From the NCBI RefSeq assembly GCF_009831625.1, contig NZ_WUUS01000016.1, forward strand, positions 1 through 39,396: a stretch of DNA of 39,396 bases, read 5' to 3'. Position numbers and translations under genes: made by a program. Positions 6,031 through 16,752 of this stretch are shown here, in pieces. The first letter of the stretch is position 1; each line of letters starts with the position of its first letter. The notes beneath the pieces are model-generated. The model was not told the origin of the DNA. It worked only from the letters and a program-made list of their open reading frames with translations, and searched no databases. The stretch is from Halobaculum saliterrae. Lineage in GTDB: Archaea > Halobacteriota > Halobacteria > Halobacteriales > Haloferacaceae.

Positions 6031-7104
6031 CTATAGACCAACCGCCGCTAAGGAGTCTGCTGAAAATAATTTTTCAAGATCGGCGTTGGCGAGCGCTGTT
6101 ACCCACGCTGCCGCAGCGTCCGATTCGGGGGTCGAAGGTGATCCAGCGACGGCACGGTAGTGTTCGACAATTCCGGCCACGCCAAGGGCATTGCCGGCGC
6201 CGAGTACCGTTACCTCGGCCTCCTCGCCCTCCCCTTGGGAGAGTCTCTCCCACGAGACAACAGTTCGGTCGGACGCAAACGAGACGTAAAGCCACTCAAT
6301 CCCTGCGTCGACGAGTTCAGTAGCGCTGTATTCATTATTGTCAACCCGAATCGGCTGGCTGGTCCGCGAGTCCATCGCGACGAGATCATCAAGTTCGCGG
6401 CCTTCGGTCAGCGCGGTATCGACGAACGTTGCGAGGGAGGTGTCAGTCCGCCAGAACACCGACAGCCGTCCGTCCGAATACAGTTCTACGTCAACGGTCA
6501 TTCCACCGGCAGTATGAAGTTGAAGCCGGAGTACATGGAGCGTTCCATCATCAACCGCGAAGGCAGAAACCTCGACAACAGCTTCTGGATCAACCGAGTT
6601 ATCGAGTGTCACTGCAAGTTCCTCTGCATCTTCTATATCAACAGGTTCGGAGAAATCGCCGCCCGGTGAATCAGTTTCCCGGGATCGGGTCGTTTCCGAT
6701 AAATCATCCAGGCCATTTTTTTGATTCTGTTCTTCGTGCGATTGGCTCCTGTTTAGGTGATCGACATCCTGTCTATCCTCGCGGCCATCACCGAGCACGC
6801 TAACCACGACATGGCTCTTTGTCTTCGATAGCGGCCGCGTCTCAGCAATTCGGACTTGGTCGCCTTCCTCTACATCAAGACAAGGCGAGATGTGCGCCGG
6901 CACGCGGCTTCGCCGTTTCATATATCGGTCATATTTCGGTACGAATACGTCATATTCGCGCTCGACAACTACTGTCTTCTCCATCGATGTGGAGGCAACT
7001 GTCCCTTCAAGTGTCTGCCCTCGAGTTGACAGCGAACCATGAAACGGGCAGTTTGCGTCCGAACAGGACTCTTCTGGCGAGTCCACATTTAAACCCAACG
7101 TCAT
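6031..7104 (-). CDS. Ribosomal protein uS17 paralogue fused to a C-terminal domain of unknown function
   Basis: 357 residues. Residues 1-104 are recognisably archaeal uS17 (rps17): MTLGLNVDSPEESCSDANCP, FHGSLSTRGQTLEGTVAS, EKTVVVEREYDVFVPKYDRY, MKRRSRVPAH and RPLSKTKSHVVV follow the usual haloarchaeal order. uS17 normally binds 16S rRNA in the small subunit, is about 110 residues long in haloarchaea and is encoded in the S10/spc ribosomal operon; no ribosomal genes are nearby here. Residues 105-150 are a Gln/Glu/Ser-rich hydrophilic linker. Residues 151-357 form an acidic domain with alternating hydrophobic strands (LHVLRLQLHTAGGMTVDVEL, LSVFWRT, EWLYVSFASDRTVVSWERL) and a helical end, which I do not recognise. 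The gene heads a leftward cassette. An inverted repeat overlaps its promoter. Confidence 0.85.
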   Translation of the reverse strand: MTLGLNVDSPEESCSDANCPFHGSLSTRGQTLEGTVASTSMEKTVVVEREYDVFVPKYDRYMKRRSRVPAHISPCLDVEEGDQVRIAETRPLSKTKSHVVVSVLGDGREDRQDVDHLNRSQSHEEQNQKNGLDDLSETTRSRETDSPGGDFSEPVDIEDAEELAVTLDNSVDPEAVVEVSAFAVDDGTLHVLRLQLHTAGGMTVDVELYSDGRLSVFWRTDTSLATFVDTALTEGRELDDLVAMDSRTSQPIRVDNNEYSATELVDAGIEWLYVSFASDRTVVSWERLSQGEGEEAEVTVLGAGNALGVAGIVEHYRAVAGSPSTPESDAAAAWVTALANADLEKLFSADSLAAVGL

Positions 7105-7138: not shown

Positions 7139-7429
7139 ATATATCATCTCTACTTATAATTTATGAATTGTTATGGTACGGCTATCCCAGTTTCCGCTTT
7201 CAGACACACAATCCGCTCTTGAAAGACAGGTGGCAATACCAAAGCGATCACAGATGAAAACGGAGGCCAAGCGCTGACAAATAGAGGTGGAGGGATTACA
7301 AAAACAGGCTGCTGATTCATGATTTAGTCCGTGGTCATTACCGGGTAGTGGAGTCAGGTGTTAGACTCGGTGAGAAAATTGTTCAGCGGCTGAGATTCAA
7401 ATACGAACACCGGACCAACCGATGGTGAG
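7139..7429. other. AT-rich intergenic stretch, no convincing gene
   Basis: The interval separates the leftward uS17-fusion cassette from the rightward intein-like gene. It holds only one very short frame (ATG 7173, 34 codons) that lacks haloarchaeal codon bias. It is AT-rich near 7140-7170 and likely contains promoters for both sides. No tRNA, repeat or attachment site was seen. Confidence 0.4.
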
Positions 7430-8647
7430 ATGGACATCAGCACCGAACGCGGCGTCACACCAACTGAAGAGGGTCGGTCCGGCGGATTGGCAGCCGGGAC
7501 GAACGTTCTCGGGGCCGACGGGAGTTCTCCAGTTGAACAACTCGTGCGGGGGGACCGGATCTACGCAATGGAGCCCCTCAGTCGGACGGTGAAACTGAAG
7601 CGTGTCGTCGACGTGGACCGTATCGAACCAGCCGCGGCGGTCGACATCGACGCACAACGAGCCCGCCTCCGCCTCGCACCGGGGCAGTACGTTCCGTTCG
7701 TGACTGACGACATCGACCTAGTTCGCTACCAACGGGCAAACCGACTGAACGAGCGGCATCGCTATCGGTTCATCTCCGAATGGGACCCTCTCGGGAGTCC
7801 CCGGACGGAGGTCGTCGACCTCACCGACCACGCGACAGAGTACGAGATCGTCGCGGAGTACAATGGGTCACACGGGCATTCGTTCCGAGCGGCACTCCCA
7901 GCAGGGTGTGAGCCGAAACGGCGACACAAACAGGTCGGGTACGCGTTCGATCCCGCGACTTTCGACGTCTACCGGGAAGCGATCGATGCGGAATCGACCG
8001 CGCTCGGGATCCGAACGGGAGCAAAGGAACGGCCACGACCGTACCGGTTTGCGGGCGATGATTTCATCCAACTGCTCGGCTGGTTCGTCACCGAAGGGTC
8101 TATCTACACCGGATCGGACCGGAACAGTGCCTCGGTCAAAATCGCTCAGGAGACACCGCGGTACCGCGACACGATCAGACGCCTCCTCGATCGGCTCGGA
8201 ATCGCCTATCGGGAGGACGATCGGTCGTTCAGAATCGGCTCGAACTGCTACGGTCAGATCTTCTCGCGGCTGTGTGGGTCGGACAGTCGCTCCAAGCGGC
8301 TCCCATCGCTCGTGTGGGACTGTTCATCCGCACAGAAGCGCCTCCTGCTGGAGACGCTGCTTGCCGGTGACGGGAACGAGAAACGCACCTACTACACAGT
8401 CAGTAACCGGCTCGCGGGCCAAGTGCTCCGACTGTGTGTTGAAACAGGAGTCACGCCGGCGTACCACAGCCGCGATGACTGGCGGGTGTACTGTCGTCAC
8501 GTGCCGAGTGGATTCAACACGTCGACCCACTGTTCATGGGTCGATGCGACGCAGCCATACTATCGGATCGTGCTCGAAGACTATCCGCTGTTTCTCGCCG
8601 GACGGAATGGGACATTCCAGTGGCTCACTGCAGCCGCCATCGCATAG
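7430..8647 (+). CDS. Free-standing intein-like protein: Hint remnants around a LAGLIDADG homing endonuclease
   Basis: 405 residues. The N-terminus matches intein block A and the Hint fold (residues 20-45, LAAGTNVLGADGSSPVEQLV then RGDRIYAME), but the position of the splicing Cys1 is Gly19. Two dodecapeptides of a LAGLIDADG endonuclease follow: LLGWFVTEG at 215-223 and LLLETLLAGDGN near 305-316, each with the acidic catalytic residue (Glu in the first, Asp in the second). The C-terminus has the block F-like FLAGRNGTFQW, but no terminal His-Asn and no extein residue. It is therefore an intein architecture that cannot splice by the standard route and is translated as its own gene with ATG and stop. 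It could be a stand-alone homing nuclease, possibly domesticated by the element. Confidence 0.75.
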   Translation: MDISTERGVTPTEEGRSGGLAAGTNVLGADGSSPVEQLVRGDRIYAMEPLSRTVKLKRVVDVDRIEPAAAVDIDAQRARLRLAPGQYVPFVTDDIDLVRYQRANRLNERHRYRFISEWDPLGSPRTEVVDLTDHATEYEIVAEYNGSHGHSFRAALPAGCEPKRRHKQVGYAFDPATFDVYREAIDAESTALGIRTGAKERPRPYRFAGDDFIQLLGWFVTEGSIYTGSDRNSASVKIAQETPRYRDTIRRLLDRLGIAYREDDRSFRIGSNCYGQIFSRLCGSDSRSKRLPSLVWDCSSAQKRLLLETLLAGDGNEKRTYYTVSNRLAGQVLRLCVETGVTPAYHSRDDWRVYCRHVPSGFNTSTHCSWVDATQPYYRIVLEDYPLFLAGRNGTFQWLTAAAIA

Positions 8648-8936: not shown

Positions 8937-10157
8937 TCACCGCCACCACAGGAGCCGATCAACGAATCCACGTTCTCTCTCTGCGTTGAGTTCGGCTTCT
9001 GCTGTTTTACGCCGCGCTCGCTCTGTATCGAGCTGCTGTTGGAGCCGTTCATTCTCACGCTCGAGTGCATCCAATTCCGTTCGAAGCTTCGACAAAGCCG
9101 GAACTGACACAGAACCCTGGTCAGCAGAATTGCTATCGGTCTCTACGGGTGCTGTCTCAGTAGTAGAGGTGTGAGACTCCGCTTGATCCTCTTCCGTCTC
9201 AAACAACGTCCACGACGTGTCCGATGAGCGCTCGTAGAAGTCGTCTGTCCCGGTGATTGCCCGCTCGATCGTACGTTCACCGTATGTCGCGCCGTCGCTG
9301 AAGTGAACCTCGTCCCACTTCGGGCGGAGTAGGCCTGACTGGCGAAACAGACGGTCAATCTGGGTAGCATCACCGGCCGTCCAGAACGCAAGCAGTGAAC
9401 ACAACGCCATATCTGCCTCCGAGTGACTTTCGTACCCTGCCGTCGAGCCACGCCAGAGGCGGTCGAATTTCTCGCCATTCGTCGCCTGCTGAGCATGCTC
9501 CAGCAGTTCATCGTCCGCGAGGTCGTTTCCGGGTCCATCTCTAGTATGATCGAGAGACGTCTGCTCCGCCTGTGGCGATGACTCTGACTCGGAGGGATGT
9601 GGACTCTCGTCGAGTGTGAGATACTCCGCATGGATCGCCGTGAGCGCATCCGGCCTGACGCATGCAGTCATCGGCGTCTCCGCCAGCTGGTCGCCGGTGA
9701 CAGTGAAGAATCGTGCTGTGTCATAGAGTTCGATCGATCCTCGTCGGTTGCGGCCGTTGGGAAGCTCTCCGCGAACGATCACGTGAACGCCTGTTCCAGA
9801 GGGACTGACCTCTGTGAATGACGCGAGATCGGAGACGATAGCAGTAGCATCCCCAGTAAGGTCTCCCGTCTCAGGGTCTCGGCAATCATCCAGATCAACA
9901 CCGACGAGCGGGTCATCACTCGTGAAGACAAAGCCCAGTCCAGTTCCGGACTCGGCTGCATAGGCGCTGGCCGTCTCAAACGATCGCCATGTGTCCGGGT
10001 CGGTGCTTGAGGCGTATGAGCCGGTTTCCGGTTCGACTGGAATCTTCGTTTGCTTCCCGTTTCGATCTTCACTACGCCAGCAGACCCACTGCGGTCGCTC
10101 AACCATCGCCGAGGGGAGATCACTGGCTGTGGGAAGTGCTGAATCAGTCATCGGCAT
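8937..10157 (-). CDS. Primase-polymerase-like replication protein (NrS-1 polymerase type)
   Basis: 406 residues. The N-terminal part matches the primase-polymerase-like domain found in phage and plasmid replication proteins: PQWVCWRSEDRNGKQTKIPV, the metal-binding acidic motif VGVDLDDCRD near residue 80, SPSGTGVHVIVRG, and IELYDTARFFTVTGDQ. A middle region (about 220-310) with FDRLWRG, EADMALCSLLAFW and FRQSGLLRPKWDE is the helical domain that accompanies such proteins. Residues about 345-400 form a coiled coil (LDALERENERLQQQLDTERA) ending in a short aromatic tail. No helicase motifs are present. The start overlaps the end of virB4 by 14 bases, so both are translated from one message. The likely role is priming of element DNA after transfer or at replication. 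Confidence 0.75.
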   Translation of the reverse strand: MPMTDSALPTASDLPSAMVERPQWVCWRSEDRNGKQTKIPVEPETGSYASSTDPDTWRSFETASAYAAESGTGLGFVFTSDDPLVGVDLDDCRDPETGDLTGDATAIVSDLASFTEVSPSGTGVHVIVRGELPNGRNRRGSIELYDTARFFTVTGDQLAETPMTACVRPDALTAIHAEYLTLDESPHPSESESSPQAEQTSLDHTRDGPGNDLADDELLEHAQQATNGEKFDRLWRGSTAGYESHSEADMALCSLLAFWTAGDATQIDRLFRQSGLLRPKWDEVHFSDGATYGERTIERAITGTDDFYERSSDTSWTLFETEEDQAESHTSTTETAPVETDSNSADQGSVSVPALSKLRTELDALERENERLQQQLDTERARRKTAEAELNAERERGFVDRLLWWR

Positions 10158-12219
10158 GGGCGGGAGTCGACTCGTCAGTGAGTGGGGCTGTCTCCTCGTG
10201 GGGATCGTGCTCGATCACAGCGTGCTCGCGCGGGAGCGCGTGGACTTCCATGCCGCGCCACTCGCCGTCGACGCCAAGCAGCGCCTGCGAGTATCCCGAC
10301 TCCTCATCTCCAGGTGTCGCCGTCTGAACGAATCGCATCTGTGGATGGTTCAAGCCGAATTCGTCGGCCCACGCAGCGTCCATCCCATCGAGTTTGTGGA
10401 ACTGCTTGATCGCACACTGATCAAGGATCATCTCTGCCGTATCGTGTTCGAAGAACTCGTCGACAGTCTGTGTCACCAAACGAATGGAGAGGTCGTGGTG
10501 TCGGTGGTGTCGGAAGATCGTCTCCAAGTATGAGAGCGTCGCAGCGTCTTTCATCAGATACCGCGCCTCGTCGATGACGAACACGACTTCCTTGTCCGTC
10601 TCTTTCGCTCGCTCGTAGACGAGCGTGATGAGCAACTCCATCAGGAGGCTCGTGTGGCCACCGACTTGTCCGCCCTGCTCAGCCAAGTCGAGATACACGA
10701 GTGACTCATCGCGAATGTCGAACTCGCTATTGCGGCCAAGTTGTTCGAACTGTCCGTCTTCGGCGAAGGGCCGGAGTTGATCGAGAAGCCACACGGCATC
10801 ATCGCTGATCTTCTCAGCTTCCGCGGCGGTTCGAACAATGTACTCACCCGGTGACTCGGACATCGCCGCGAGAATATCAAGCATATCTCGGACTGTCGGG
10901 CTCTCCCGATCATGGGTCGCCACATCCTCGGTAATCCCCTGTTGTTCGTAGGCCTCCCCGAGCGCCATCTCCAGTGTGGTCCGCCGATCTCCTAATTCGA
11001 CGCCGCGAGTCGCAAAGACGTTCGTGAAGAATGAGAGCGCTCGTTCTTGTCGTTCCTTCAGTGGACTCGCATCGTCACCGCGGGCGTTGAGCACATGCTC
11101 GGGAGTCGGTTTGATCTCGAGCGGGTTGAGACCGAGCGTTCCACCCACGGTGATCCGCTGGCCACCGAGCGCATCATTGACACCAGCCCAGTTGTTGAGC
11201 GGTTCGAGAATAATCCCGATTCGATCATCTGACTGCTCCAAGCTCCGGATGAAGTTCTGCTTCGCTCCGTAGGACTTCCCGGATCCAGGGTCACCGACGG
11301 TGAACATTGCATACCCGTCTTCGCGAGCAAACGGGTCCACAACTAGGGGACTGCGCGTATCTTTGTGGATTCCGAACTCGACGCCGCCTTCTTCGAGCAT
11401 TGTCGGCGAGTGCGGTGACGCGAGTAATGCGCCTACGGCGCCACCAAGGGCGATCGACTCTCGACCCATGGCGTCGCCGCCGATCGGCGCCGCCGACCGG
11501 AGCGCTTGGTCTTGGAGACAGATCGCCGTCGCTGGTTCGAGACGTGCCGGCGGCTCCCGGAGTGTCGATCGAACGGTAGTCACGGCTTCCGAAAGCTCCG
11601 AGCGCGTGTCTGCACGCACCGTAATGTACAACGACTGTTCGAACACCCGTTGGCCATTCTCGACGGCTTTGTACGTCGCTGTGGCCGCAGCTGCGCGGTC
11701 GTTGAGATACGACTCACGGACACTTCGTTCGAGGTCAGCATCCGCTTGGAGGTCATCTGCAGTCGCCTGCAACCGATCGCGAGCCCGCGCTTGCGGTATC
11801 GGATCGAGGTGTGCCGTCACATCGAACGACACGTCGGTCAGTTCGAACAGCCCGCTGAGATACCCATCTGTAGGATGATCCGGATATGCCGCGATAGTGA
11901 GTGTCTGTGTCCACTGTGTTCCAACCTTCGCCGCCCGAGACTCCCATTCAATCGCATCGGGAGCGATCGCGGTTCGATGCCGTTCAGCCACGGCATCAAG
12001 CGCTGCTTGTTCTTCGCGCCCAGCTGTAACGGTCTCTTCAGCGAGGAGGTCGCCGAATGTGGTGTCATCTGCGCGGGCAACTCGCCACTGTCGAATGCGA
12101 GCGATGACGATGAGAATCGCGACACTACCGATGCCATAGACGAACACGCCTGCACCCGACACTGGGTCGGGTGCTGCATCCAGCACTGCTGCCAGTAGTG
12201 CGTTGATGGCTTGCATCAT
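10144..12219 (-). CDS. virB4: VirB4-family conjugation ATPase
   Basis: 691 residues. One N-terminal membrane segment (residues 22-42, GAGVFVYGIGSVAILIVIAR) is followed by the VirB4/TraC N-terminal region and then the motor domain: Walker A GDPGSGKS at 309-316, Walker B VVFVIDEARYL with Asp550-Glu551, and the late motif RLVTQTVDEF. VirB4 proteins energise pilus or channel assembly in type IV secretion systems; haloarchaeal elements carry reduced sets with VirB4 and a coupling protein. The start is ATGATG at 12214-12219, overlapping the stop of an upstream remnant frame as ATGA. The frame is intact. Translation is coupled to the primase-like gene downstream. Confidence 0.85.
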   Translation of the reverse strand: MMQAINALLAAVLDAAPDPVSGAGVFVYGIGSVAILIVIARIRQWRVARADDTTFGDLLAEETVTAGREEQAALDAVAERHRTAIAPDAIEWESRAAKVGTQWTQTLTIAAYPDHPTDGYLSGLFELTDVSFDVTAHLDPIPQARARDRLQATADDLQADADLERSVRESYLNDRAAAATATYKAVENGQRVFEQSLYITVRADTRSELSEAVTTVRSTLREPPARLEPATAICLQDQALRSAAPIGGDAMGRESIALGGAVGALLASPHSPTMLEEGGVEFGIHKDTRSPLVVDPFAREDGYAMFTVGDPGSGKSYGAKQNFIRSLEQSDDRIGIILEPLNNWAGVNDALGGQRITVGGTLGLNPLEIKPTPEHVLNARGDDASPLKERQERALSFFTNVFATRGVELGDRRTTLEMALGEAYEQQGITEDVATHDRESPTVRDMLDILAAMSESPGEYIVRTAAEAEKISDDAVWLLDQLRPFAEDGQFEQLGRNSEFDIRDESLVYLDLAEQGGQVGGHTSLLMELLITLVYERAKETDKEVVFVIDEARYLMKDAATLSYLETIFRHHRHHDLSIRLVTQTVDEFFEHDTAEMILDQCAIKQFHKLDGMDAAWADEFGLNHPQMRFVQTATPGDEESGYSQALLGVDGEWRGMEVHALPREHAVIEHDPHEETAPLTDESTPAHADD

Positions 12220-12488
12220 GTCTCCTCCCGTCGGGTAGCGGTCCCAGTCGCAGGCTCACGAGCAAGTAATCGCTGTGTATCGTCGTATTCGGTCCCGTTC
12301 CAGAACGTCGCAGTCAACACGAACAGCTCCAGTGTCGACAGACGCCGCGACTCCCAGTCGTCGACGTGTTCGATGAACTCTGATTCAACGGTGTGAAGTC
12401 GCTCTCGGAGTCGCTCATACAGTGCTTGGCGACGGGTTGCATCCGTCGGTGTCGACCGACGAGGACGACCCCGTCGACTGTATCGGCG
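12216..12488 (-). pseudogene. Remnant reading frame just upstream of virB4
   Basis: A frame of 90 codons without a start reads RRSTPTDATRRQALYERLRE, then VESEFIEHVDDWESRRLS and TLELFVLTATFWNGTEYDD, and stops at TGA inside the virB4 start (ATGA). It has protein-like composition, while the alternative frame over the same DNA, the tail of the alpha/beta hydrolase, is Ser/Arg/Cys-rich and unnatural. It is bounded upstream by TAA at 12489-12491. It is likely the C-terminal part of a small gene that normally precedes virB4, cut when hydrolase DNA was joined to it. The position of the join, about 12450, is estimated. Confidence 0.5.
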
Positions 12489-12982
12489 TTATTTCCGGCG
12501 TACCGACACGCCATCGCGCCGCCAAGCGAGTGACCGCCGACTACCCAGCGGGAGACCTGCGATTCACCGTCGATAACCGCGTCTGCTCGCCCCTGGGAGA
12601 AGACCGCGAGGTTCATGCGCATCTTCGGGATCACGACTGTGACGTTCGCGCGTTCGGCGATTCGAGCCGCAGTCGGAAGATACGCGTCAGGTGCAACTCG
12701 TCCGCCGGGGTAGAAGATGAGTCCCAGACGTTCGACGTCGGGGTCGGCGTCCGACACGACGTACCCACCGTAGGCTTCGGTCACGGTGACGTTCGTATCC
12801 GCTCGAACGGACTGTTGAACGTCTGCAGGTGCGTGGTGAGCGAAGACGCCGAAGTAGGCATAGAACCCAACACTGCACAGGATAGCGATAATGGCGACAA
12901 CTGAGAGGGCACGGATAGCGACACGCCGCAGTGACCGCTCTGCGACCCACTGGCGGACGTCGTTGTGAGACGGGGCGTTCAC
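12314..12982 (-). pseudogene. Alpha/beta hydrolase, C-terminally truncated by a junction
   Basis: The frame begins at GTG 12982 or ATG 13000. It has an N-terminal membrane anchor (ALSVVAIIAILCSVGFYAYF), then a secreted-side alpha/beta hydrolase domain with GLIFYPGGRV (oxyanion region), VTVVIPKMRMNLAVF and the nucleophile elbow WVVGGHSLGGAMACRYA (Ser in GHSLG). After DTVDGVVLVGR the sequence turns into Arg/Ser/Cys-rich residues that belong to another frame. The catalytic Asp and His expected in the last 80-100 residues are absent, so the enzyme should be inactive. It fits a hydrolase of the dienelactone-hydrolase type (Abhydrolase_5), broken by recombination. Confidence 0.6.
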
Positions 12983-13239
12983 ACCATGGGGCCACACCAA
13001 GCCACAGTATCAGTGTATTGTCCCTCGGAGAGTGAGAAGATGAAACACTAGAATTTACCTCATCTGCAGTCGGAATTTCCAGCCCGCAGACAACAGCAGT
13101 CCTTGTACACCATCACACACCGTTTGATGGCGTGAGTACTTCGCTCGGGGTTGGAACCTCTCGGTATGACCCAAGGCTCGCTCCGACAGCGGCCAGTGGC
13201 ATCGACGAGCGGACACCCAGCACAGCCCACACGACCGCA

Positions 13240-16200
13240 ATGAGCGAGCGTCGGTTTCTCCAGATCACGCCGAGTCCGGAGCCGCTTCCTGCCGACCGGA
13301 TCACCGACCAGTTCGAGCAACTGCATCGCGCACTCGGCGATCACGTCGTCGAGGTCTGTCTCGCCACCGACGGGGCTGAGCTCACGTACGTCCTCGGGAC
13401 CGACGCGACCGCATTTGATTCTCTCCACCGTGTCACGAGTCGACTCTTCCCCGACAGCTACGCGCTGACACCCATCGATGCGGACGCCGAACCACTCGAG
13501 ACACAGCTCAACGACCCCACAGTCATCGCTGAACTCCACGGCGTCGGCGAGCGCCGTGACGACTGGCAAACGCGCCTCCGACCGCCCTCCTACTCTGATG
13601 CACCCGAGCAACACGATACGGCTCGTGTCGAGGACGCCCCAGGGCTTCCGCTCACATCGATCGCAGCCGGGCTCACAGCGAGTGACGTGCCCGCAGCCTA
13701 CCAAGCACTCCTCGAGCCGAAGCCTGACTGGAGCGGCGAAGCCGAATATCGCGTCCACCGCCTCGATCACGCCCGAGACACCGTCGGACAGCGGCTGGTA
13801 GGATCGATCCTCCCACCAACTGAAAACGACGACGAGGATCGCCATGCACCGCTGCGTTCGGCCCATCGCCGCGGTGACACGGGCAGTATACCGGGCACGC
13901 GGATCGATGCGATCCTCGCGAAGTCGGCGCGCAACTGCTACACGGTGAACGCCCGCCTCCTTGCGAGTGGTCCGACCGCCGACGCGATCGTCGATGACCT
14001 CGCTGCAACCTTCACAGCCGTCGGCGGCGCGTTCTATGACCTGCGCCCCGTTGTTCACGACGAAGCGCCACAGGAACTCACCACGGCCGTCTCACAGCGG
14101 ATCATGCGACAGCCGTCGATCACTAGACGGCTTGGCCACCACATGCCATTGGTGAGCAACCGTTCACCGGCGATCGTCGCCGACTCGACGACCGTCCCCC
14201 ATTTCGCGCTGCTTGATGGGGCGACCCTCACGGAGACCAGTCAACGTGCCCTTCGCGCGCTGCCGAGTGAGCGAACTGGGTTGTCCCCACCATCGGCGGA
14301 GGCACTCACACAGTATGATCACGGCCTCGAGATCGGCAAGCCCCGCCGTCGCGACGGGACAGCCGACCAGTCGACGGTTGCGCTCCCGCCGTCACTTCAA
14401 CCGCTGCATACGGCGTGGTTCGGGAAGACTGGTTCCGGGAAATCGACGGCACTCACGAGGGCGATCACGGCGAATCAGAAGGCGACAGATGGTGCAGATA
14501 TCTGTATTCTCCCGAAGGGCGACGACATGGCGAGCACGTTGCTTCGGACCCAGTATGCTGAACACGGGCACTTGGAGAACGTCTACTACTTCGACTGTAG
14601 CGATACCCTTCCCGCGCTGTCGATGTTCGATATCCGCGCCGACCTGGACGCAGGTATCCCGCGGACGACGGCTGTGCAGGACGTGACTGACCACTATATC
14701 GAGCTACTGCGGGCGGTCACAGGCGCGGAGTCATTCGACAGCGCGGTCCGTTCACCGGACGTGATCCGGTATCTTGTGAAGGCATTATTCGATCACGAGT
14801 ACGGCGCGGACGCGTTCGCCCACCGCGATCTCGAACGTGTCGTCCATCAGTTCCGGCGCGAGGGCGAGCCACCGCTCGTCAGTGACGATGACCTCCGTGG
14901 GATGCTCGTGGGCGTTACCGAAAACGACCCCCAAGCGTTCGACCACATCATGCAGGGCGTCGCCAACCGGATCGAAAAGGTCCCGCTCGATGATCGCCTC
15001 GCTCGCGTGTTCAATCACGTCGACGGTGCGGAGACGCCAACGTTCGACCTCGCGAGCGTCCTTGATGAAGACGCGTTGGTGATCCTCGATACGGGTGGCC
15101 TTCGCGCTAAGAGCCAGCAGTCGCTTGCGCTCGTTCTCCTGTCGAACCTCTGGACGGCACTGCGCCAACGGAGTCGCCGTCGCGACGAGACAGCAAGCGA
15201 GGGAGATGCAGATCTCCCCTTGGTCAACCTCTATCTCGAAGAGGCGGCCGACCTCGCGGTCTCGGATCTACTGAGCGATTTGCTGGCACAATCACGCTCG
15301 TTCAGGCTGGGTATCACGCTCGCAATGCAGTTCCCCGGGCAACTCCGAGAAGCGGATCCGGAGGCCTACAGCGAGCTCATGAACAACGTCTCCACGCTCG
15401 TGACGGGCAACGTCGCCCTCGATACGCGTCTCCAACAGCGGCTTGCGACCGACGATACTCCGGCCGAAGAGGTTGGCACGCGACTGCGAGCGCTCTCTCG
15501 TGGTGAATGGCTTATCACGCTTCCTGCGCCGTTCGGGGAACCAGAGCCACAGCCGTTCGTCGTCGAGTCACTGCCGTTGCCTGCGGGCCATCCAGAAGCG
15601 GCCAATGCCTTCTCAGATGCACGGGTGGCCGGCTTTCAGGTAGAACACGCGGCGGCTATCGAACGGACGCGCCAGCAGGCAGGCCTCTCACTCGCCGACG
15701 CCGGAACGGCGGATGCGGCGGTGCCAGAGTCGAACTCGTCGCTTGGGGTGGATCAGCCGGCGGTGCAGGTTGACTCTGCACTCCCGACGAGCGAGCGACT
15801 GCCCGTGGAAGTGACCTATCACCGCGAGGCACACGCGATCGCGTGTGACTCCTGTGGTGCCCGGTATGAGCCGACGATCGGCGGGATCTCCCGTTGTGTG
15901 GGGTGTTGTGGCGACATCGACGAACTGGACCGCGAGGAGATTCCGATCTGTGAGGTCCCACTCACGCTCTCAGAAGGCGAACGAAATGCGGTTGAGTGGA
16001 GTCACAGCCAGCTCCTGTTTCTGCAGGCGGTGTATGCAGCCCAACAGCGCCGGTTCGACCCGCTTGCGTATGACCTTCTCCACGATGGGATGGACGACAT
16101 CCAAGCCGACTGTGGACTCGAAGAGGATGCGGTGGAGGAATTGCTCGGAGCGGGGCTGCTTCGCCATGACGGCGACACGCCCCACACTCTGTATACGGTG

Positions 16201-16752
16201 ACGCCAGCGGGGCGCAGGCTGCTCAAAGAGCCCCATCGCGAGGGTGATGCCCATGGCCATGGCGCCGGCGACGTCGCCGAGTCCAGCCTCCATACGGTGT
16301 TGGTCGCGTTAGGTGCGCGATACATCGAAGCGGAGTATGTCGCATGCGAGGCATCCGCGGCGGTTGAAGCACGACGCTACTTCGACGTACCTGATGGCGA
16401 GGGGCGATATGATGCAGTCGGCCTGGATGACGAGGGTGAAGTAGTTGTCACGTTGGAAGCCGAGCGCGTCAACGGCGACGTGTACTCGGCCGTTCCAGAT
16501 GACTACGACAAGCTCGCAGCACCAGATCCGGAGGCGGCGATCTGGGTGACGGTGAGTGGGTCTGCAGCCCACGAAGTGTTACACGTCCTCAATCAGCCTG
16601 CCCACGGACCGGCGAGGGTGACCAAAGAGTACAGCGAGAACTCCCCGCCGAGTCAGTGGCGGATCGACGAACCGGGATTCACGGAACTCCAGACGGCATC
16701 GATGCTGGTTCGCGACCTCGATCTCACCACTGCAGACAGGCCACGCCGGTGA
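13240..16752 (+). CDS. VirD4/TraD-like conjugative coupling ATPase
   Basis: 1170 residues from ATG 13240 (MSERRFLQITPSPEPLP); an ATG 36 codons upstream is possible but gives an untypical leader. Walker A is FGKTGSGKST (residues 394-403), followed by ICILPKGDDMA; the Walker B-like acidic pair is Glu667-Glu668 in LVNLYLEEAADL, and LGITLAMQFPGQL is the sensor region. A C-terminal zinc ribbon (Cys869, Cys872, Cys886, Cys889) is followed by a winged-helix-like region (LYTVTPAGRRLL) and a tail domain. This matches the large haloarchaeal HerA/VirD4-type ATPases that accompany VirB4 in conjugative elements and move DNA to the channel. It diverges from the virB4 operon, with the control region near 13000-13239. 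No membrane segment is seen. Confidence 0.8.
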   Translation: MSERRFLQITPSPEPLPADRITDQFEQLHRALGDHVVEVCLATDGAELTYVLGTDATAFDSLHRVTSRLFPDSYALTPIDADAEPLETQLNDPTVIAELHGVGERRDDWQTRLRPPSYSDAPEQHDTARVEDAPGLPLTSIAAGLTASDVPAAYQALLEPKPDWSGEAEYRVHRLDHARDTVGQRLVGSILPPTENDDEDRHAPLRSAHRRGDTGSIPGTRIDAILAKSARNCYTVNARLLASGPTADAIVDDLAATFTAVGGAFYDLRPVVHDEAPQELTTAVSQRIMRQPSITRRLGHHMPLVSNRSPAIVADSTTVPHFALLDGATLTETSQRALRALPSERTGLSPPSAEALTQYDHGLEIGKPRRRDGTADQSTVALPPSLQPLHTAWFGKTGSGKSTALTRAITANQKATDGADICILPKGDDMASTLLRTQYAEHGHLENVYYFDCSDTLPALSMFDIRADLDAGIPRTTAVQDVTDHYIELLRAVTGAESFDSAVRSPDVIRYLVKALFDHEYGADAFAHRDLERVVHQFRREGEPPLVSDDDLRGMLVGVTENDPQAFDHIMQGVANRIEKVPLDDRLARVFNHVDGAETPTFDLASVLDEDALVILDTGGLRAKSQQSLALVLLSNLWTALRQRSRRRDETASEGDADLPLVNLYLEEAADLAVSDLLSDLLAQSRSFRLGITLAMQFPGQLREADPEAYSELMNNVSTLVTGNVALDTRLQQRLATDDTPAEEVGTRLRALSRGEWLITLPAPFGEPEPQPFVVESLPLPAGHPEAANAFSDARVAGFQVEHAAAIERTRQQAGLSLADAGTADAAVPESNSSLGVDQPAVQVDSALPTSERLPVEVTYHREAHAIACDSCGARYEPTIGGISRCVGCCGDIDELDREEIPICEVPLTLSEGERNAVEWSHSQLLFLQAVYAAQQRRFDPLAYDLLHDGMDDIQADCGLEEDAVEELLGAGLLRHDGDTPHTLYTVTPAGRRLLKEPHREGDAHGHGAGDVAESSLHTVLVALGARYIEAEYVACEASAAVEARRYFDVPDGEGRYDAVGLDDEGEVVVTLEAERVNGDVYSAVPDDYDKLAAPDPEAAIWVTVSGSAAHEVLHVLNQPAHGPARVTKEYSENSPPSQWRIDEPGFTELQTASMLVRDLDLTTADRPRR

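Follow-up and report, generated by a model that had tools for sequence, protein, structure and literature searches.

The window, a 39,396-nucleotide stretch of Halobaculum saliterrae DNA, carries at 7430–8647 a gene belonging to a standalone haloarchaeal family whose origin from an intein is firm. We put the probability at roughly 60% that the gene encodes a free-standing homing endonuclease of PolB-intein descent, carried by haloarchaeal conjugative elements, autorepressed, and homing into related DNA that lacks it. Within this reading a homing role is plausible, and we infer DNA cleavage, its target, homing, autorepression and a role for the retained intein shell.

The protein and its PolB-intein ancestry

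The open reading frame is intact and independent: it runs from its own ATG to TAG with no internal stop, as a sequence-only reading of this DNA had noted, and does not lie in frame within a host protein. Its product has a Hint (intein) shell enclosing a two-repeat LAGLIDADG endonuclease, with the following features.

7430–8647, + strand: intein-derived free-standing LAGLIDADG endonuclease gene, 405 aa (ORF, relatives, alignment, tree, model)
7484–7870, + strand: N-terminal part of the Hint (splicing) domain, residues 19 to ~147, boundary approximate
7484–7486, + strand: Gly19, where inteins have the nucleophile Cys1 (alignment)
8093–8095, + strand: Glu222, catalytic acid of LAGLIDADG repeat 1, motif LLGWFVTEGS (alignment)
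8369–8371, + strand: Asp314, catalytic acid of LAGLIDADG repeat 2, motif LLAGDGN (alignment)
8585–8587, + strand: Pro386 at the block F His position (alignment)
8630–8632, + strand: Ala401 at the position of the intein's terminal Gln/Asn, next residue Ala (alignment)

Pfam recognized LAGLIDADG_3 in the protein (E 2e-7) and Hint_2 below threshold (E 0.02), and its block F/G-like end reads YRIVLEDYPLFLAGRNGTFQWL. An AF2 model with a mean pLDDT of 91.7, for which 38 proteins from the window and the loci were aligned as input, together with PDB comparison revealed a Hint fold with blocks A, B and F. The top PDB match of the model was the PI-PkoII intein 2cw7 (VIA-align Z 23.5, 371 aligned, rmsd 6.7; Foldseek E 2e-20), VMA inteins stood next to it among the best matches, and intein structures occupied the top ranks; WhiA was also found among the structural matches.

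An alignment of 20 standalone proteins with 18 PolB inteins separates the residues for splicing from those for cleavage. Position 1 was Gly in 20/20 standalones versus Cys in 18/18 inteins, matching the substitution of the first Cys claimed earlier for the window protein. The block B Thr was present in 0/20 versus 18/18, the block B His in 14/20 versus 18/18 (Gln in the window protein), the block F His in 0/20 versus 16/18, and the last-residue Gln/Asn in 0/20 versus 18/18, with Val, Ala or Thr standing in its place among the standalones. At the same time, both groups retained the first LAGLIDADG acid throughout (20/20 and 18/18), and the second was found in 20/20 standalones versus 16/18 inteins. 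The earlier description of an orphan intein that kept its Hint and LAGLIDADG parts and lost its splicing residues is thus borne out in all 20 proteins. The terminal His-Asn-(Cys/Ser) reported as missing is indeed absent; this by itself signifies no loss, because the PolB inteins at this site also lack the penultimate His and read Gly-Gln↓Ser (the arrow marks the intein boundary; 15 of the 18 aligned terminate in Gln and three in Asn), and it is the Gln/Asn that has been lost. The fossil +1 residue, which corresponds to the start of the C-extein, is Ser in 17 of the 20 standalones and Ala in the window protein, and all 20 stop four residues past the old intein end. Judged from the retained residues, nuclease activity is likely, and the gene product is a probable DNA-cutting enzyme. 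Among the inteins, one in a viral-contig PolB (L097, 9980–11152) has Gly at the second LAGLIDADG acid and is likely a dead homing endonuclease.

PolB motif-B-site inteins align with the window protein over nearly its full length at ~31–36% identity, and the intein of Haloferax volcanii polB has, as far as the accessible text describes it, the same Hint and LAGLIDADG layout (PMC3024317). PolB inteins differ in lying within polB and in keeping Cys1, TPNH, mostly the block F His, and a Gln/Asn that precedes Ser, none of which the window protein has, and it has no host gene. In a maximum-likelihood tree of 44 rows, midpoint-rooted and containing two long viral rows that call for caution over long-branch effects, all 20 standalones formed one clade (support 100/100), whose sister (98/94) was L081, an intein in a divergent PolB at 42280–43470 of contig C3 of G373 (also L118). 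The L081 intein ends in FQWVGQ↓S, similar to the FQWVGVS of the standalone family, from which it differs in still residing within PolB with its splicing residues present. Its contig spans 135,622 bases; around L081 it encodes RtcB and ribonucleotide reductase, along with numerous small genes on a single strand, and this stretch appears virus-like.

These sequence relationships suggest that a PolB intein probably escaped once to found the standalone clade. The proposed comparison with haloarchaeal polB inteins supported the earlier idea of a free homing-type endonuclease in an old intein shell, with monophyletic standalones whose nearest outside relative is a real PolB intein. That reading had also named two findings that would count against it, close relatives that reside within a host gene and splice, and a chance fusion of frames. 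The inserted relatives proved more distant (33–38% identity versus 39–92% for standalones), and a 92% identical orthologue in another species of the same genus, with a dN/dS of 0.12, rules out a chance fusion.

Distribution, genomic context and age

The standalone family comprises 20 intact genes and two broken by insertion sequences. Among 170 genomes of the host's taxonomic family, nine contained a standalone frame of 415–463 aa (identity 39–100%, E 3e-91 or better), and about 50 contained a match of 33–38% identity within a frame of >1100 aa, which was PolB in those read, with insertion boundaries KVIMN↓CFTPDTEV ... FQFVGQ↓SLYGV. Profile searching across the order (392 genomes), together with a scan of named genomes, brought the standalone set to 20 distinct intact genes, 36–92% identical to the window protein or among themselves, with carriers including Halogeometricum pallidum, Haloprofundus marisrubri, Haloparvum sedimenti, Halorientalis pallida, Haloarcula salina and two Halosimplex species. 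Stop-to-stop frames measured 413–544 aa in 19 of the 20, and the remaining one reaches 700 aa through open upstream sequence in which no extein was recognised. The broken copies, in G071 and G080, are each split by an insertion that we take to be of IS200/IS605 type from TnpA/TnpB sequence features; at L039 (8249–9526) and L211 (17195–18894) the broken copies carry such an element with a TnpB-like gene, a recurrent route of loss. In viral contigs, a single-protein search yielded five stretches that matched a pattern, none of them a relative, and an alignment search returned 15 loci, of which L097 and L110 read as PolB inteins and the others were partial or weaker matches; the plasmid collection gave no match. 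The open-access literature searched held no description of the standalone family.

In the window, the gene is followed by primase-polymerase and conjugation genes.

8937–10157, − strand: NrS-1-like primase-polymerase protein (Pfam PF22763, E 1.5e-30)
10144–12219, − strand: VirB4-like conjugation ATPase (NCBIfam VirB4-like model, E 2e-37, under the curated cut-off)
13132–16752, + strand: TraD/VirD4-like coupling ATPase (weak Pfam/NCBIfam matches), with a homologue in many standalone loci

Across 21 loci (20 intact and one broken), a TraD-like ATPase, VirB4 or NrS-1-like gene lay near the endonuclease in 18, mostly within 10 kb; the loci with no conjugation gene in the sequence examined were L114, and L045 and L049, both near contig ends. 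The G080 locus likewise contains TraD-like and NrS-1-like genes. The suggested check on whether orthologues occupy the same place in other elements thus came out positive for the company of conjugation genes and negative for a single fixed place, since order and strand relative to TraD, VirB4 and NrS-1 differ between loci. TraD-like genes occurred in 102 of the 170 family genomes and NrS-1-like genes in 86, versus nine for the intact endonuclease; missing from most conjugative elements, the endonuclease is thus optional cargo, and a substitute relaxase or required transfer part was rejected on the same ground. A tRNA gene as integration site was found in none of the 28 sources scanned, and a PDB search with a neighbouring 577-aa conjugation-cluster protein, made as a fusogen check, gave nothing. 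Elsewhere in the window, a 357-aa ORF to the left of the endonuclease (6031–7104, − strand) joins an N-terminal ~105 residues that match ribosomal protein uS17 (archaeal uS17 model, E 2e-41) to ~250 further residues, and at 12222–13000 (− strand) the conjugation module seems truncated, with a 73-residue remnant of the G016 gene that precedes VirB4 followed by an ORF with a GHSLGGA motif, presumably hydrolase-like.

A blastn comparison of the window with G016, which carries the 92% identical orthologue, revealed 89.6% identity with sharp edges over 7384–8647, from 46 nt upstream of the ATG to the stop codon, and in both the endonuclease sits near the 3′ end of the NrS-1 gene. The endonuclease gene is under purifying selection, with a dN/dS of 0.12 for one pair of orthologues and 0.16 for another. 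Between the window and G016 its dN/dS was 0.124 and its dS 0.37 (95% 0.28–0.45), versus a dS of 1.49 (1.16–1.99; 1.47 in a first estimate) for VirB4 of the flanking modules, so the same gene resides in two element lineages. In G000, a second element on contig C3 has a VirB4 that differs from that of G016 by a dS of only 0.27, which marks the window module as another lineage; this G000 counterpart of the G016 module has no endonuclease copy. The recent hopping that the lower dS of the endonuclease suggested is undone by this value of 0.27 and by host polB, whose dS between the same two hosts was 0.30 (0.23–0.39). Because the endonuclease dS resembles that of host polB, the gene dates to roughly the time when the host species diverged and gives no sign of recent spread.

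The recognition site that the sequence-only reading proposed to seek at the insertion point did not emerge: no cleavage site was found, and no clean empty allele. The endonuclease-less element nearest to that of G016 (contig C3 of G000) loses synteny 142 nt before the gene, G012 likewise stops short of it, and the G080 locus holds the first 49 residues of the broken copy and then the IS200/IS605-type insertion. Long flanking direct repeats or polB fragments were found beside the gene in none of 20 loci.

The putative promoter region

The block conserved with G016 extends beyond the open reading frame into a putative promoter.

7384–7429, + strand: conserved upstream block, putative core promoter, shared with the G016 orthologue along with the ORF and unrelated further left
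7396–7403, + strand: TATA-like TTCAAATA, 34 nt ahead of the ATG, a putative TATA assignment
7408–7427, + strand: weak dyad CACC...GGTG between the TATA-like box and the ATG, score 4, under the threshold of 5

A TTTATC/TTCATA-like box lay 27–38 nt upstream of the start in 20 of 22 upstream regions, and in many standalone genes it is followed, immediately ahead of the ATG, by a dyad such as ACGGGCAC-N5-GTGCCCCGT. With a score of at least 5, an end at most 3 nt from the start, and four near-copies removed to leave 18 lineages, a promoter dyad was present in 11/18 lineages versus 12/127 control genes from these loci (Fisher 2e-6); across 500 shuffles the mean was 1.1 and the maximum five. A preceding test that ignored position had given a weaker signal (p 0.002). 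The Haloprofundus marisrubri copy is one with a strong dyad. By eye, the outer dyad pairs are A-T in L036 and G-C in L035 and L113, and such variation between lineages favours symmetry over plain sequence. The TATA and dyad block in its L036 form occurred in 3/170 genomes, each time at the endonuclease gene. A dyad elsewhere as target was rejected, since exact copies were found at the gene only and matches with two mismatches stood at about the control level, in five genomes of one genus.

Given the architecture of haloarchaeal promoters, the transcript would be leaderless, and the dyad would then be a DNA operator. Its position suggests autorepression of the kind known from the T4 I-Tev enzymes, which, in the part of the account available, repress themselves through a promoter operator (PMC2988022), and the endonuclease itself may bind the promoter dyad.

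Candidate functions and known counterparts

In the history that we favour, the parent intein would have occupied the PolB motif-B site (KxxxN↓SxYG), most likely in a virus or plasmid polymerase, and left its host gene once. The escaped intein would have gained its own promoter, start and stop, dropped its splicing residues and retained both its nuclease and its Hint shell, the latter probably still aiding in holding DNA. The promoter dyad would keep the endonuclease level low. On meeting related DNA without the gene, the enzyme would cut a long specific site, and repair would copy the endonuclease gene and linked element DNA into the cut DNA; the endonuclease may thereby spread, or else regulate, the conjugative element, as had been proposed from the sequence.

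An interference nuclease, with which the element would cut rival elements or viruses, for instance their polB genes, and for which homing would be unneeded, appears to us a minority possibility. It draws on the nearest intein lying in the PolB of the 135-kb virus-like contig, and on the polB of the carriers, which was ordinary and uninterrupted in 17/17 intact carriers checked of the 20. Ordinary host sites imply either that the enzyme has ceased to cut host polB or that it is under tight control, and a polB specificity would be harmful to the carrier if the viral site were not sufficiently different. The PolB-a intein, in a tally to which G071 was added, occurred in 0/9 carriers versus 53/161 others of the family (p 0.031, genus-stratified 0.027), and G071, whose standalone copy is broken, carries a PolB intein; mutual exclusion of the PolB-a intein and an intact standalone gene is suggestive only, with modest statistics and a pattern spotted after the fact, and no rival target was identified. 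Improbable in our view is a domesticated, HO-like recombination switch that makes a programmed break for integration, excision or transfer of the element. The linkage to conjugation genes and the purifying selection would suit it, as would another genus in which the gene has been kept vertically at one place in three species, one copy being broken; against it stand the rarity of the endonuclease relative to TraD-like and NrS-1-like genes, and the insertion-broken copies in G071 and G080, where conjugation genes remain.

The promoter dyad and the match to WhiA could also befit a DNA-binding regulator, whose LAGLIDADG fold merely binds DNA, as in WhiA, to repress its own or element promoters. 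We consider this very improbable, given that both catalytic acids are invariant among the standalones, a stricter conservation than in the inteins, and that the searched TATA and dyad block occurs only at the gene itself. Least credible is a functionless dead relic or chance fusion: the splicing residues are gone and 2/22 loci are broken, but 20 genes are intact, dN/dS is 0.12–0.16 and the gene has its own promoter block.

The closest parallel to a free-standing homing endonuclease of this descent is yeast HO/WHO, described in the accessible part of one account as intein-derived LAGLIDADG proteins in genes of their own, without exteins, with splicing lost and the shell kept (PMC7282813). The standalone family is equally intein-derived, free-standing and non-splicing, with the shell retained. 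As far as the same source goes, the nearest relative of HO is the VMA1 intein VDE, whereas the standalone parent is a PolB intein; the C-terminal zinc finger of HO/WHO is absent (no C-terminal CxxC repeats, 20/20), the duplicated target-gene fragment of WHO has no equivalent beside the standalone genes at 20 loci, and the archaeal conjugative-element context is unlike that of HO/WHO. A WHO-type mechanism, with a target fragment or long flanking repeats, was accordingly rejected, and the other parent intein, missing zinc finger and missing target fragments make the family a counterpart of HO/WHO, not a member. More tentatively, and with the odds against it, we can envisage a full archaeal HO/WHO counterpart: an autorepressed former PolB intein, whose operator dyad probably derived from the cleavage site, acting as a drive or weapon of conjugative elements and excluding its parent PolB intein.

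Free-standing haloarchaeal endonuclease genes have a precedent in the LAGLIDADG_2 genes of Haloferax glycosylation islands, for which a role in island transfer through gene conversion has been proposed (PMC5867893); these belong to pfam03161, the available portion of that report mentions no intein origin, and we liken them by description only. Phage T4 endonucleases, the free-standing Seg enzymes and the I-Tev autorepressors among them, supply the model proposed here for the standalone family, intronless homing and operator autorepression (PMC2988022, as far as its accessible text goes). I-TevI, as far as described, is a GIY-YIG enzyme that is not intein-derived, unlike the standalone family. 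The T4 Seg enzymes are GIY-YIG proteins as well.

To our knowledge, the passage from splicing intein to independent nuclease gene is known mainly from yeast HO/WHO. The haloarchaeal family provides a second, archaeal case, in which the closest intein still resides in PolB, making the order of losses readable and testable, and the shared promoter dyad offers a concrete handle on a candidate binding site. If the endonuclease drives conjugative elements, DNA transfer from cell to cell and homing would be joined in one system.
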